Source: Parcubacteria group bacterium GW2011_GWA2_40_143 | GTDB taxonomy: Bacteria; Patescibacteriota; Minisyncoccia; UBA9983 | Assembly (NCBI GenBank): GCA_000996035.1 | Contig: LBYH01000005.1 | Coordinates: 1-39,125 of the forward strand | Direction: 5' to 3' | Length of the DNA: 39,125 nt | In this document: positions 20,253 to 39,125 of the stretch, one piece after another | Layout of the letters: every line of letters starts with the position of its first letter | How positions within the stretch are numbered: position 1 is the stretch's first letter | Position numbers and translations under genes: made by a program | The notes under the pieces: generated by a model | The model's input: the letters and a program-made list of their open reading frames with translations, nothing else | What the model was told of the DNA's origin: nothing | Databases searched by the model: none

Positions 20253-21421
20253 AGATTTTAAATTTAAGTTTAGACAAAGCGGCGCTTGATAAAAATTCTT
20301 CTCTGGCGAGGAGAATAATTGAGTATGGTGGCATGACAGATAAATACACTATGGTGGTGCCGATCGGCAATGAGAGTGTTTTAAAGATATCTGATAAAGT
20401 AAATATCTATGGCGTTGGCGGAAGAAACAAAATTACGCGCTTGTTAAAGCTTTATTTTTTCGCCAAAAATATTTTAAAATCGGAGAAGTATGATGTTATC
20501 ACCACGCAGGATGTTTACTATCTCGGTTTCGTGGCGGTGCGTTTGGCTAAAAAATTCAACATCGGACTTGAAGCGCAAGTTCACGGCTGGGAAAAATTTG
20601 TTGGTATTCGCAAGATGCTTGCCGGAAGAACGCTAAAGCGCGCCGATTCCGTAAGAGTGGTAAGCAGCAGACTTAAAAAACAGATAATAAAAGATTTTGG
20701 CGTAGCGGAAGAAAAAATAACCGTGGCGCCGATATTTGTAAATCTAAAAACTAAAATCTTAAATCTAAAATCTGAAAAATTTAAAAAAGACAAGTTTATT
20801 TTTTTAACGGTCGGACGATTAGTGCCGGTTAAAAATATCGGTTTACAAATAAAGGCGATGGCTAAAGTAGTTGAAAGTCAAAAGTTGAAAGTGAAAAGTG
20901 GAAAAATTGAACTTTGGATAATTGGCGATGGCCCGGAAAAATCAAATCTCAAATCTAAAATCTCAAGTCTCAAATTAGAAAACAACGTGAAGTTATTTGG
21001 TTGGCAAAACAATCCGGAGGAATTTTATTCCCAAGCTGATGCCTTTTTGCTCACTTCAAACAGCGAAGGTTGGGGAATGGTGGCGGTGGAAGCGGCGACT
21101 CACGGTTTGCCGATAATAATGACGGATGTCGGTCTTGCCGGTGAGGTTATAAAGAATGGCGAAAGCGGCATAGTGATACCGGTAGGGAATCAGGCTAAGC
21201 TGGAAGAAGTGATGATTAAAATCATTGGTGATGAAGATTTGCGGAGAAGACTGGCGGAAGGCGCCATTTCAGCCATAGAAAAAATGCCAAGCAAAGAGGA
21301 AACACTGGCTTTATACAAAAAAAGTTTGGAAAAGGCGATGAAAAGTATTGAAATAATTACACAAGGAAAAGGGAAGTTTATTTCGGACGACTTTTCCGCT
21401 ATGTCAGGGAGGGAGAAATGA
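20249..21421 (+). CDS. glycosyltransferase family 4
   Basis: 390 aa; FLTVGRLVPVKNIGLQIKAM, AFLLTSNSEGWGMVAVEAATHGLPIIMTDVG; contains heptamer-repeat segments and ends inside the 82-bp repeat. Confidence 0.9.
   Translation: MKILNLSLDKAALDKNSSLARRIIEYGGMTDKYTMVVPIGNESVLKISDKVNIYGVGGRNKITRLLKLYFFAKNILKSEKYDVITTQDVYYLGFVAVRLAKKFNIGLEAQVHGWEKFVGIRKMLAGRTLKRADSVRVVSSRLKKQIIKDFGVAEEKITVAPIFVNLKTKILNLKSEKFKKDKFIFLTVGRLVPVKNIGLQIKAMAKVVESQKLKVKSGKIELWIIGDGPEKSNLKSKISSLKLENNVKLFGWQNNPEEFYSQADAFLLTSNSEGWGMVAVEAATHGLPIIMTDVGLAGEVIKNGESGIVIPVGNQAKLEEVMIKIIGDEDLRRRLAEGAISAIEKMPSKEETLALYKKSLEKAMKSIEIITQGKGKFISDDFSAMSGREK
20745..20779 (+). repeat. heptanucleotide array within GT ORF
   Basis: TAAAAAC TAAAATC TTAAATC TAAAATC TGAAAAA. 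Confidence 0.7.
20869..20903 (+). repeat. heptanucleotide array within GT ORF
   Basis: AGTTGAA AGTCAAA AGTTGAA AGTGAAA AGTGGAA. Confidence 0.7.
20942..20976 (+). repeat. heptanucleotide array within GT ORF
   Basis: TCAAATC TCAAATC TAAAATC TCAAGTC TCAAATT. Confidence 0.7.
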
Positions 21422-21440
21422 ATTTCCCTTTTTCTTGTGT
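21359..21440 (+). repeat. 82-bp palindromic repeat element, copy A
   Basis: ACACAAGGAAAAGGGAA...TTCCCTTTTTCTTGTGT terminal inverted arms; 77/82 identical to 22926-23007. Confidence 0.85.
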
Positions 21441-22925: not shown

Positions 22926-23007
22926 ACACAATGAAAAGGGAAGTTTATTTCGGACGACTTTCCCGTTATGTCCGGGAGGGAGAAATGAATTTCCCTTTTC
23001 CTTGTGT
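22926..23007 (+). repeat. 82-bp palindromic repeat element, copy B
   Basis: ACACAATGAAAAGGGAA...TTCCCTTTTCCTTGTGT; 77/82 identical to copy A, identical length. Confidence 0.85.
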
Positions 23008-23772: not shown

Positions 23773-23799
23773 ATGAATTTCCCTTTTCCTTGTGTAATT
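23773..23799 (+). repeat. half copy C of the 82-bp element
   Basis: ATGAATTTCCCTTTTCCTTGTGTAATT, identical over 27 nt to 22985-23011. Confidence 0.8.
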
Positions 23800-26189: not shown

Positions 26190-28871
26190 ATGTTCAAAAA
26201 AATTTTTAGTATCGCTCTTCTCTCCATCGCCGCCATTTTTGGCGTCTTCAATCTTACTCCAAACGTCTCAGCTGAAGAATTGCCGGAGGTGGGCATAAAA
26301 GAAGTAGAGGTGAAAATTGGCGACAAAGAAATTATAATTTTTGCCACACTTTTTAACAGTAGCGACAGTTTGACTACCACCCCTTTTACTTATCTGGCAA
26401 TGCTAAAGAGCATAAACCACTTCATTCCCTCATCCGATCCTGACCTTGATTTGCCGGCGCTTATCGTCTCAGCCGTGGAGGGAGAAGAATACACGATTCT
26501 TAATCCGCTTGAAGAAAAAAGGGCTTCGTATCTTATACCGATAAGTCCGGATTTGCCGCAAGATAATTATGACTTGTCTCTCAACCTTATCTTAAAAGAC
26601 GGTCGTTCCGTAGGTTATTATTATGATGTGCTTAGAGATTACGGCGCAAACGAGAAAAGCAACAAAACTTCATACACAGAAGGCTTTTTAGCTTTTAATC
26701 AAGAAAGTTGCGGCGTGGCGAGAGCGGATGGATTAATCTTTCCGGCAAACGAAGGACCTGTTTTTAAGCCGCTTGAAAGACCTGTGGCCAATTGTAAGGT
26801 AAGAAACATCGGCGACAAAGATTTAACGGTGTATCCCGTGGTAATTTGGAAAGAGTTTTTTGTGTACGGCAGACCGTCCAGCGGGCAGAGGTATTACGAG
26901 AAGCTTGAACAGCCTATTTTCATAAGAGCCGGAGAAACCAAAAATGTGGAAGTTTTGCTGCCGGACGAAGAAGTTCCTCAGGTTTATCAGGCGCTTGTCA
27001 GTTTTGAAGATGCCGGTGGCAATAAAAAATCTTTTGATATGTTCTTTAGATGGACCATAAAAGGGGAGTCCGGCAGAGTCAACGCCGTAAGCCTTGTGGA
27101 TGCGCCGAAAGAGAGTTACACCAAAGGAGAAACTCTTGCTCTTTCGGTGGATTATTACGGGTCGGTTGATCTATATTGGCGAGATTTGGAAGAGAATATT
27201 TCTCAAACTGCCAATTTTAATCTTACCGCTATCGTAAAAGATAAAAACGGCGAAATCTGCGGCCAAAAAACCGTAAAGCTTCCGACCATAGAAGATGGCG
27301 GTCTTAAAAACGAAGTGGTTGATGTCGCGCTTAGCAAGGATTGCAATGGGGTCTCTTACAGTGTTTCTCTTATTTCGGAAGACGGCAATGTGGTGGCGCA
27401 AGAAGAGGATATTTTGCCTGTTAGAAAAAACATTGCCGGAAATCTTATGCCATATTTTTATCTTCTAACGGTTCTAATGGCCTTTATTATTTTTGTCATG
27501 GTTTTTGCGATTCGTAAAAAGAAAAAATCAATAACTGGTGTTTATTTGCTTGCTTTTGTTTTCGCGGCGACTTGTTTTTTTGGTATTTTCAGCGAAACGG
27601 AAGCGGCAACAACTAAACCCTATACCGGCGTGCCTTCTCCGAGTGGTTATAGTGGCGAAGCCTTTACCGCAAATGACACAAACAATGGAGAATCTTCCGA
27701 TAAACTTTATTCGTACTACACCGGTGGCAACAATGAAGTAAAAATAAAAGATGTTTATGCTTACTTTGACGATTATTTTGCCTATACTAATGAAGTTCCT
27801 TATGTGCACTTTGATTACGGATCCGGTTATGGCGGTTCGTGTTCAAACTCAGCTTTATACATAAGAGTTAAAATGGAGTTGGTTGTGGGAAATTCAACTT
27901 ACAAGCTTGATATAAAAAAGAGATCAAGTTCCGACGGTTATGATGGTAAATATATTAAAGAGATAATTGGTTCGGCAATGAGTGACAGGAATCTCAATCT
28001 TGAAATAAATCCGGATAATTTTGCCAATATTTATGACAGTAATGGCAAACTCAAAGATAATGCCAATCTGATTATATACGTCACTGCCGTAAGCCGACAC
28101 GCTCAAGACAGTACCACGCCGGAAGGTTCTTACTACAAAAGCACATTTACTACTCCGACGAATAAAACGCAGTATAGTTCCAGGAGTGATGCTTTAGACG
28201 CCAGCGATGACATGAAGATAACCATACCACTTTCAAGCTTACCAAACCCGAGCGTAACTTTAGACGCCAACCCGACTGAAGTGGACTATGGCGGAAGTTC
28301 CAAATTGACGTGGACAACGAAAGATGTTGATTCGTGCGCAGAGTTCAACACAAATAATGATTCGCAATTTAGCGGATCAATTACCGTTATGAGCTCAGGC
28401 TCAGAAACTATTTACAATATCACAAAAGACAATACTTATACTCTTCAATGCGATAAGTATCTTGGCTCGGCTGTTGGTAAAAAGAATTATTTAGATACGG
28501 CGAGCGTGAGTGTAAAACCCAATCCTTCCTGCACTGCCAGTCCGAGTTCAACAACGACAGGCAGTAACGTAACATTCTCATCAGCCGTGACGGGGGGAAC
28601 ATCGCCCTATACTTATTCTTGGTCGGGAACGGATATTTCAGGAACAAATACCGGTTCAACCCTTACCAAATCGTATTCAACCATTGGAACAAAAAGCGCC
28701 ACAATCAAGGTTACGGACAAAAACAACAAAATCGGAGAGGGTACTTGTACGGTGAGTATTAGCTCTCCAGATCAATGCGATTCTGCGAACAACTCTTGTG
28801 TAAGCGGTTCTTGGTCTGATCTTACCGACACATCAACGAAATATAAATGGAAATGCGGAAGTTTGATATAA
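26190..28871 (+). CDS. large surface protein with Ig/PKD-like domains, 5' part of a split gene
   Basis: 893 aa; signal peptide, internal TM pair (NLMPYFYLLTVLMAFIIFVMVFAIRKKKKSITGVYLLAFVFAATCFFGIF), PKD-like SCTASPSSTTTGSNVTFSSAVTGGTSPYTYSWSG; terminates in a 25-bp tandem duplication. Confidence 0.8.
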   Translation: MFKKIFSIALLSIAAIFGVFNLTPNVSAEELPEVGIKEVEVKIGDKEIIIFATLFNSSDSLTTTPFTYLAMLKSINHFIPSSDPDLDLPALIVSAVEGEEYTILNPLEEKRASYLIPISPDLPQDNYDLSLNLILKDGRSVGYYYDVLRDYGANEKSNKTSYTEGFLAFNQESCGVARADGLIFPANEGPVFKPLERPVANCKVRNIGDKDLTVYPVVIWKEFFVYGRPSSGQRYYEKLEQPIFIRAGETKNVEVLLPDEEVPQVYQALVSFEDAGGNKKSFDMFFRWTIKGESGRVNAVSLVDAPKESYTKGETLALSVDYYGSVDLYWRDLEENISQTANFNLTAIVKDKNGEICGQKTVKLPTIEDGGLKNEVVDVALSKDCNGVSYSVSLISEDGNVVAQEEDILPVRKNIAGNLMPYFYLLTVLMAFIIFVMVFAIRKKKKSITGVYLLAFVFAATCFFGIFSETEAATTKPYTGVPSPSGYSGEAFTANDTNNGESSDKLYSYYTGGNNEVKIKDVYAYFDDYFAYTNEVPYVHFDYGSGYGGSCSNSALYIRVKMELVVGNSTYKLDIKKRSSSDGYDGKYIKEIIGSAMSDRNLNLEINPDNFANIYDSNGKLKDNANLIIYVTAVSRHAQDSTTPEGSYYKSTFTTPTNKTQYSSRSDALDASDDMKITIPLSSLPNPSVTLDANPTEVDYGGSSKLTWTTKDVDSCAEFNTNNDSQFSGSITVMSSGSETIYNITKDNTYTLQCDKYLGSAVGKKNYLDTASVSVKPNPSCTASPSSTTTGSNVTFSSAVTGGTSPYTYSWSGTDISGTNTGSTLTKSYSTIGTKSATIKVTDKNNKIGEGTCTVSISSPDQCDSANNSCVSGSWSDLTDTSTKYKWKCGSLI

Positions 28872-29048
28872 ATGGAAATGCGGAAGTTTGAGTTGCGAGG
28901 CAAGTATTACAACCACGCCCTCAGATCAATGCGATTATGCGAACAACTCTTGTGTAAGCGGTTCTTGGTCTGATCTTACCGACACATCAACGAAATATAA
29001 ATGGAAATGCGGAAGTTTGAGTTGCGAGGCGAGTATTACAACCACGCC
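28770..29048 (+). repeat. two near-identical coding repeats (43-aa period)
   Basis: DQCD[S/Y]ANNSCVSGSWSDLTDTSTKYKWKCGSLSCEASITTTP; two 125-nt units differ at two positions once the 25-bp duplication is removed. Confidence 0.9.
28841..28890 (+). repeat. exact 25-bp tandem duplication
   Basis: ATATAAATGGAAATGCGGAAGTTTG twice head-to-tail; the second copy creates TTG ATA TAA in frame. Confidence 0.95.
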
Positions 29049-30984
29049 ACTTGAGCCTCCAACAGGTCTTACCGGATCGGCCGGAGCTTGTGGCGGTAAT
29101 ATAAACTTGTCGTGGAATTCCGTTACGGGCGCGACGAGCTATACTCTTTACAGAAGCGGTTATGAATTTAGTGGAATTAACGGAACATCATATGCTGATT
29201 CCGGTTTGGGGACCGATATGAGTCATGAATATAAAGTGAAAGCATGCGATAGTAGCGGCGTATGTTCCCCTTATTCTCCGTCCATATCCGTAACTTCTTC
29301 CGGCGAGTGCCCATCCGATGCGTATTCATTGACATTCAGGACTAAAGGAAACGGTTCGGGATACGCCAAGTTTTATGATTGGCGAGATTATTGGCAAGAC
29401 GGTTCATTTTATGATTGGGTACTTATGGGCGATAATCTATCAGAGTTGACCGATGGCGAGCAGGCGACCATAGGAAAAGATTATAAATTCAAATTGACGG
29501 CTATGCCTGCCGCGGATTCTTATTTCGGCGGCTGGTCCGGTTGCGATGATAGCAGTGGCGATGAGTGTTTCCTTAATGAAAATACATCCGGAACAAGTAA
29601 AACGGTAACGGCCGATTTTAAGAAGGAAGGCGGCCCGGTTTCCTGCGATCCGACGGTAAAATTTGGTCCAAATAGTGATATCATGACATCAGGCAATACG
29701 AGAAATATTTATTGGTATTCGGCTTATGCCGATTCGTGCGTTCCATCCGGCGGAGGCAAAGATACAAATTGGGCAAATTCAAGCATAGGAACGAGCGGAT
29801 CTTATAGTGTTACGGAAATAAAAACAAGCGAGGGAATCTCAAGAACTTACAATATAACTTGCTATAACAGTTCAGGCGGAAGTTCTTCCGGATCAGCGAC
29901 GATAACTGTTAGTGACAGTAAGAATTCTCCGTATTTTGCATTTGACGCGTTTCCTAATCCGGTTACTTCCGGCCAATCAACGAATCTTTATTGGATTGGG
30001 ACGAATTGTCTTAGTTCTAGAGTTAGTTTATTTTCACCAACCGATTCCTCGGTGGGAGAATTATATAATACCAGTTCGTATATAGCTACGTTGAAGGGAT
30101 GGTACGGTTCAATAGCCGATAACGGCGGTTATTACTCGTGGGGGTTAAGCTCTTCCAACACCGGAGACCATGCCACAAGTGATCTTTCCAGCGATACCAC
30201 ATACGTTTTGCGTTGCGAGACGCTAGAAGGAACTAATTCTTACGCATACCAGTATCTTACGGTGGAAGCCGGCGTTAATTCTTGCGGTCCGTCAAACGTT
30301 CCGCCGGAAGTTTCTTTAGTCTGCGATCCGGTTTCTTGCGAAGGGTACTATGGTTCGGTGGCGGGGCAGGATGGTTCATTGAAAGTTACTTACGCCGCGA
30401 CCGACGTGGATGACAATATAGACAGTTGTGAATTTGAAGTTGATGGTAATCTTGAATCATCTTCTTGCAACGATAATTATTACCCGACATCCGTTTTGAG
30501 CGCTGGGACACATACGGTAGCCATGACGGCAACTGATAAAGATGGCGAAGCCGCGGTTGGATCAAAAACCGTTGAAATTTTAGAGCGAAAGACAGTTGTA
30601 TTTGAATTTTACCCTCCGACGGACGACCCTCCGACGGACGACCCTCCGACGGACGACCCTCCGACGGAATTATATGCCACCATTATAGACGTTATAGACG
30701 GCTTGTCGGTCAATTCTACTTCTGTCACTATGATGGTCTCTGGCACATGCGAAAATATCTCGCTTTCAACTTCAGCGATAGTGCCTTCAATCCTAGGCGC
30801 GGAAGTTAAGCTAACCAAAAATAATGATGGAACTTACAATATAACCGTAAAATCAATACCCGGAATAACGGCAACGGGAACATATAACATTACCGTAAAA
30901 GGCACTGGCACGAATTGCGCAGAGACCACCGTGTATATTCCCTTAAACGTGAAAAACATAACCACTAGATGGGAAGAAGTTTAA
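28888..30984 (+). CDS. 3' part of split large surface protein (FN3-like, InlB-like, Ig-like segments)
   Basis: 698 aa, no plausible signal peptide; begins MSCEASITTTPSDQCDYANNSCV, which continues the upstream protein; PPTGLTGSAGACGGNINLSWNSVTGATSYTLYRSG (FN3-like), YFGGWSGCDDSSGDECFL. Confidence 0.8.
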   Translation: MSCEASITTTPSDQCDYANNSCVSGSWSDLTDTSTKYKWKCGSLSCEASITTTPLEPPTGLTGSAGACGGNINLSWNSVTGATSYTLYRSGYEFSGINGTSYADSGLGTDMSHEYKVKACDSSGVCSPYSPSISVTSSGECPSDAYSLTFRTKGNGSGYAKFYDWRDYWQDGSFYDWVLMGDNLSELTDGEQATIGKDYKFKLTAMPAADSYFGGWSGCDDSSGDECFLNENTSGTSKTVTADFKKEGGPVSCDPTVKFGPNSDIMTSGNTRNIYWYSAYADSCVPSGGGKDTNWANSSIGTSGSYSVTEIKTSEGISRTYNITCYNSSGGSSSGSATITVSDSKNSPYFAFDAFPNPVTSGQSTNLYWIGTNCLSSRVSLFSPTDSSVGELYNTSSYIATLKGWYGSIADNGGYYSWGLSSSNTGDHATSDLSSDTTYVLRCETLEGTNSYAYQYLTVEAGVNSCGPSNVPPEVSLVCDPVSCEGYYGSVAGQDGSLKVTYAATDVDDNIDSCEFEVDGNLESSSCNDNYYPTSVLSAGTHTVAMTATDKDGEAAVGSKTVEILERKTVVFEFYPPTDDPPTDDPPTDDPPTELYATIIDVIDGLSVNSTSVTMMVSGTCENISLSTSAIVPSILGAEVKLTKNNDGTYNITVKSIPGITATGTYNITVKGTGTNCAETTVYIPLNVKNITTRWEEV
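30612..30667 (+). repeat. 15-bp minisatellite encoding (PPTDD)n
   Basis: CCCTCCGACGGACGA repeated about 3.7 times, encoding PPTDDPPTDDPPTDDPPTE. Confidence 0.95.
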
Positions 30985-37016: not shown

Positions 37017-37031
37017 CAGGAGTGCTTACTT

Positions 37032-37054
37032 GCCACCTTAGCTCAGCGGTAGAG
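37032..37054 (+). pseudogene. 5' fragment duplicate of tRNA-Thr
   Basis: GCCACCTTAGCTCAGCGGTAGAG identical to the first 23 nt of the tRNA at 37112; the rest of the cloverleaf is absent. Confidence 0.85.
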
Positions 37055-37111: not shown

Positions 37112-37183
37112 GCCACCTTAGCTCAGCGGTAGAGCAACGCTTTTGTAAAGCGAAGGTCCCCGGTTCAAATCCGGGAGGTGGCT
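37112..37183 (+). tRNA. tRNA-Thr (TGT)
   Basis: GCCACCT...AGGTGGC acceptor; D arm GCTCAGCGGTAGAGC; anticodon loop TTTGTAA; T arm CCCGGTTCAAATCCGGG. Confidence 0.95.
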
Positions 37184-37187
37184 CAAA

Positions 37188-38977: not shown

Positions 38978-39004
38978 GATCATAAAACCGGAAGCCATTT
39001 TATT

Positions 39005-39057
39005 TTTTACTCCAATGTCAAGGTTGAACCTTGACATTGGAGTAAAAGTTATCCACA
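39005..39057. repeat. 43-bp perfect palindrome plus DnaA-box-like motif (locus 3)
   Basis: TTTTACTCCAATGTCAAGGTT-G-AACCTTGACATTGGAGTAAAA (39005-39047), then TTATCCACA (39049-39057). Confidence 0.8.
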
Positions 39058-39125
39058 CCTTTCATTTCTTTTATTTTTTCCTATGTTTAAATAATCTTAA
39101 TGTGTCTGAAAGAAATATCGTCGCA

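Follow-up and report, generated by a model that had tools for sequence, protein, structure and literature searches.

The window, by which we mean the whole stretch of 39,125 nucleotides analysed (contig LBYH01000005.1 of Parcubacteria group bacterium GW2011_GWA2_40_143), contains two consecutive long open reading frames, ORF1 and ORF2, which lie at the coordinates originally predicted (Table 1). Where the first gives way to the second, the 25-mer ATATAAATGGAAATGCGGAAGTTTG occurs twice in exact direct tandem (TRF score 102, 100% match), and the duplication claimed there is thereby confirmed; a dinucleotide-shuffled sequence gave no match to the 25-mer. A third, non-tandem copy is found at 28995-29019. 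The unit length of 25 is one more than a multiple of three, in keeping with the +1 frame of ORF2 with respect to ORF1 (28888 − 26190 = 2698, again 1 mod 3). The duplication thus shifts the frame, which causes ORF1 to terminate early, and removal of one copy restores the frame, as had been stated. No other lesion was found in the 893 + 698 codons of the two ORFs. At the edges of the duplication the match extends just one further base (A), which amounts to almost no microhomology. A hairpin-driven duplication was considered and rejected, since no inverted repeat reaching 10 bp is present in the region 28700-29080.

Table 1. Features of the split gene and of its repeats
Feature	Position	Strand	Basis
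ORF1 (893 aa), 5′ part of the split gene; encodes a signal peptide, a presumed extracellular N-module, a hairpin of transmembrane segments (aa ~415-470) and an Ig/PKD-like region, and stops early	26190..28871	+	
Copy 1 of the 129-bp (43-codon) unit, with the extra 25 bp	28768..28920	+	repeat alignment
First copy of the 25-bp duplication	28841..28865	+	exact match
Second copy of the 25-bp duplication; creates TAA (28869-28871) in the ORF1 frame	28866..28890	+	exact match
ORF2 (698 aa), 3′ piece of the gene: apparent TTG start inside the repeat unit; C-terminal module ending WEEV	28888..30984	+	
Second 129-bp unit (copy 2), uninterrupted and in frame; includes the 25-mer at 28995-29019	28922..29049	+	repeat alignment
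In-frame 15-bp × 3.9 tandem repeat, Asp/Pro/Thr-rich linker, same gene	30611..30668	+	

The 25-bp duplication sits within unit 1 of a larger, two-copy tandem repeat with a period of 129 bp plus the 25. The 129-bp unit corresponds to 43 codons and is in frame, the extra 25 bp being present in unit 1 only. Positions 28768-28866 match 28922-29020 at 98 of 99 sites, and positions 28866-28919 match 28995-29048 at 53 of 54, the two copies thus differing at two sites. The longest exact pair is 83 bp and would be 93 bp without the 25-bp duplication; no other long repeat of this kind is present in the contig. Unit 2 is uninterrupted in a single frame and, except for one residue, reads as unit 1 does when the latter is followed across the two frames (DQCDSANNSCVSGSWSDLTDTSTKYKWKCGSL in ORF1, SCEASITTTP in ORF2). 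The original prediction correctly saw the joined sequence agree with a second repeat unit. It left out the 129-bp tandem repeat around it, and that repeat is the chief clue to how the duplication arose.

The part of the protein encoded by ORF1 includes an N-module (aa ~28-410) followed by two hydrophobic segments (415-444 and 446-470) with RKKKK between them, a layout also present in relatives. After this hairpin come domains of Ig/PKD-like type (PKD_4 at 20.9 bits, under the cut-off) and then, in ORF2, the C-terminal module. Searches of Pfam gave no match above threshold, only sub-threshold PKD, Ig and HYR, and no NCBIfam family was matched. From these sequence features we infer that the product would be a membrane-anchored surface protein with two parts outside. 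At 27430-27605 (ORF1 aa ~415-470), in the middle of the protein, a transmembrane segment is followed by a basic stretch and by another segment resembling a signal peptide; this arrangement is conserved in relatives, and looks like either a hairpin anchor or two surface proteins fused together. In this genome the N-module and the C-terminal module each occur only once.

The comparison set comprised the window's own genome as the only member of its genus, and 11 genomes of the family. Within the family, contig QZIU01000024.1 (G009:C8; L031/L115) of Candidatus Parcubacteria bacterium isolate SURF_57 carries one uninterrupted ORF of 1640 aa that matches both pieces: residues 3-866 of ORF1 align to its residues 11-912 (E = 2e-137), residues 40-450 of ORF2 to its residues 1113-1497 (E = 6e-45), and the C-termini align as well (WEEV in the window, WEEF in SURF_57). 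This is an intact orthologue of the type that the original prediction had proposed to seek in related genomes. The two proteins share the N-module, the transmembrane hairpin, the Ig-like chain and the C-terminal module at about 33% identity, although that of SURF_57 is uninterrupted and its ORF contains no exact tandem repeat with units of at least 9 bp, nor a 25-bp or 129-bp tandem repeat. The neighbourhoods presumably have rpsB, tsf, alaS, glycosyltransferases and prfA in common, these genes having been named by reading translations. A paralogue of 1705 aa adjoins the 1640-aa ORF of SURF_57, and carries the mid-protein hydrophobic layout twice. The C-terminal module (30655-30984 in the window, 10523-10900 in L031) ends in WEEV, WEEF or WWEY, is common to the window gene and both long SURF_57 paralogues, and is possibly an anchoring or sorting module.

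The orthologue in GW2011_GWA2_43_13 (L114; 764 aa) runs off the contig end inside the gene, and ORF2 finds no match in that genome. Like this one, the other N-module relatives are ORFs that are long or left open: one of 1066 aa in another genome (G001) and one of 308 aa at a contig end in GW2011_GWA2_38_13b. In distant relatives the N-module was found in shorter ORFs, several of them of ~700-950 aa. A shorter natural protein is therefore not impossible, though these distant short ORFs have different architectures. When the genome contigs were scanned with ORF1 alone no relatives were found, while a scan with a four-sequence alignment recovered three named relatives; phages gave no match.

That ORF1 and ORF2 are one gene of ~4.8 kb, ORF2 being the continuation of ORF1, is well supported. 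Besides the frame arithmetic, unit 1 read across both ORFs gives the same unit as the intact unit 2, ORF2 lacks a signal peptide, and in the relative a single ORF covers both pieces. Two natural separate genes, with TTG 28888 as the start of the second, would account for the length of both ORFs and for a GGAAG stretch immediately upstream of that codon. However, only about one base separates GGAAG from the TTG, and ORF2 would begin in the middle of a repeat unit; since the break falls there, its apparent start is an internal Leu codon. Hydropathy analysis of ORF2 revealed no signal peptide, hydrophobic start or transmembrane segment, the maximum Kyte-Doolittle value over its first 60 residues being 0.08 versus 2.17 for ORF1. 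Together with the single ORF of SURF_57, this makes two natural genes highly improbable, and that reading was rejected. The original claim that one surface-protein gene has been split in two therefore stands.

As to the cause, an assembly artefact, a recent inactivating mutation and phase variation had all been put forward; the first fits best and the second comes next, while the third fares poorly. The 25-bp duplication is probably a local error made when short reads were put together by a de Bruijn assembler: its path through the two nearly identical 129-bp units may have been joined at a 25-bp overlap that was then kept twice, in which case the living cells would carry a single copy. Exact 99-bp overlaps between contig ends (C1-C22 and C21-C24) and a 237-base run of N in one sampled contig (C11) indicate that the genome was assembled in this way, with k=100 and scaffolding, as by IDBA-UD or a similar program. 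The duplication lies within a repeat that short k-mers collapse (the 83-bp exact pair). Moreover, it is the sole exact tandem duplication of at least 15 bp with a unit not divisible by three in the genome sample scanned (~319 kb, less than half of the genome). In the curated genomes of Borg elements, in-frame tandem repeats in ORFs are enriched in extracellular proteins, and every tandem repeat inside ORFs has a unit length divisible by three (PMC9879509). The 129-bp and 15-bp repeats of the window resemble them in being young, exact or near-exact, and within ORFs; the 25-bp unit differs in not being divisible by three. Its being a lone out-of-frame duplication, and one that falls where the contig has its single long tandem repeat, makes an assembly error the best explanation, supported also by the clean remaining codons, the lack of a second gene copy and the intact ORF in the relative. 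The contig name style of the relative ("contig-100_...") is that of IDBA-UD. Thousands of similar genomes from an aquifer were assembled with this program (mink 40, maxk 100, step 20) in a study, not necessarily the source of the window, that also describes scaffolding errors (PMC5079060). Local errors are suspected to be prominent in IDBA-UD assemblies, with duplicate sequence left at overlapping joins and wrong repeat numbers; 13 were found in one 1.13-Mb CPR genome, one of them in a repeat-bearing gene (Chen et al. 2020; PMC7111523). In such errors a coding gene is broken where a short sequence is duplicated or a local repeat is miscounted. The window gene, too, is broken by a short duplication at a local repeat, but in the published overlap cases Ns mark the join and in the window they do not.

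Several observations run counter to an assembly error. The 83-bp and 93-bp repeats are both shorter than 99 bp, and the last assembly round, at k=100, should have been able to resolve them; the join contains no N; the sampled stretches hold no second such duplication; and the surface-protein genes of the family carry young tandem repeats (the 15-mer in the window gene, 30-mers in the SURF_57 relative), so real local duplications do occur. Within the sampled 319 kb or so, there was no sign of duplication artefacts running through the assembly as a whole. A real and recent duplication of 25 bp, arising by polymerase slippage or template switching and inactivating or truncating the surface protein in the strain sampled or in a fraction of it, is accordingly a less likely but substantial alternative: the repeat could have been resolved at k=100, no N marks the join, and under half of the genome was scanned. 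The gene is repeat-prone, as its 129-bp duplication and 15-bp × 3.9 repeat attest; the copies are exact, and hence young; and no further damage is seen in either ORF, which fits an event of very recent date. However, slippage between the 129-bp units would alter the length in steps of 129 bp, not by an extra 25, and the edges show a single base of microhomology, for which reasons an assembly error is preferred over slippage. In addition, with no second gene copy in the genome the loss would be complete, and other out-of-frame duplications were lacking from the sample. If real, the duplication would be only an ordinary recent gene-breaking mutation.

Phase variation, in which the full-length surface protein would be toggled as one 25-bp copy is reversibly gained and lost, is improbable. 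The unit length is not a multiple of three and lies within the coding frame, the encoded product is a surface protein, and two tandem copies could in principle recombine or slip to one. A non-multiple-of-three repeat within a surface-protein gene is indeed what phase-variable slipped-strand surface genes have. Such genes, however, typically contain many short units or homopolymers and show observed variation, whereas the window gene has just two copies of a long unit, and this repeat is not conserved at the orthologous place in the sole full-length relative. A literature search yielded no work on phase-variable surface proteins in Patescibacteria. Phase variation thus appears unlikely, with nothing beyond frame arithmetic to favour it. 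It is equally doubtful that the duplication is real in part of the population and acts as an on/off switch for the sole copy of a giant surface protein, perhaps one for host attachment; if real and mixed in the reads, it would be a first hint of phase variation in a Parcubacteria-type group. The main value of the case is as a warning: two spurious protein records arise from the split gene, one of them with an artificial start, and it would distort any survey of surface proteins from uncultured bacteria.

Other repeated sequences were seen elsewhere in the window. An intergenic repeat element around GGGAGGGAGAAATGAATTTCCC is present at 21366-21432 and 22933-23000, 1567 bp apart, with part of it again at 23773-23799; two more inexact copies were located in the genome (G000:C2:45922-45943 and C7:10995-11016), and the element has no match in Rfam. 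At 37030-37054, 80 bp upstream of the tRNA-Thr gene (37112-37184), the 5′ end of that gene is repeated over 25 bp; the copy looks like a tRNA remnant. Finally, the end of the window (about 38980-39125) has about 144 bp, in part self-complementary, in common with the end of contig G000:C10, both copies facing outward in the same way, and this common sequence is likely a repeat element.
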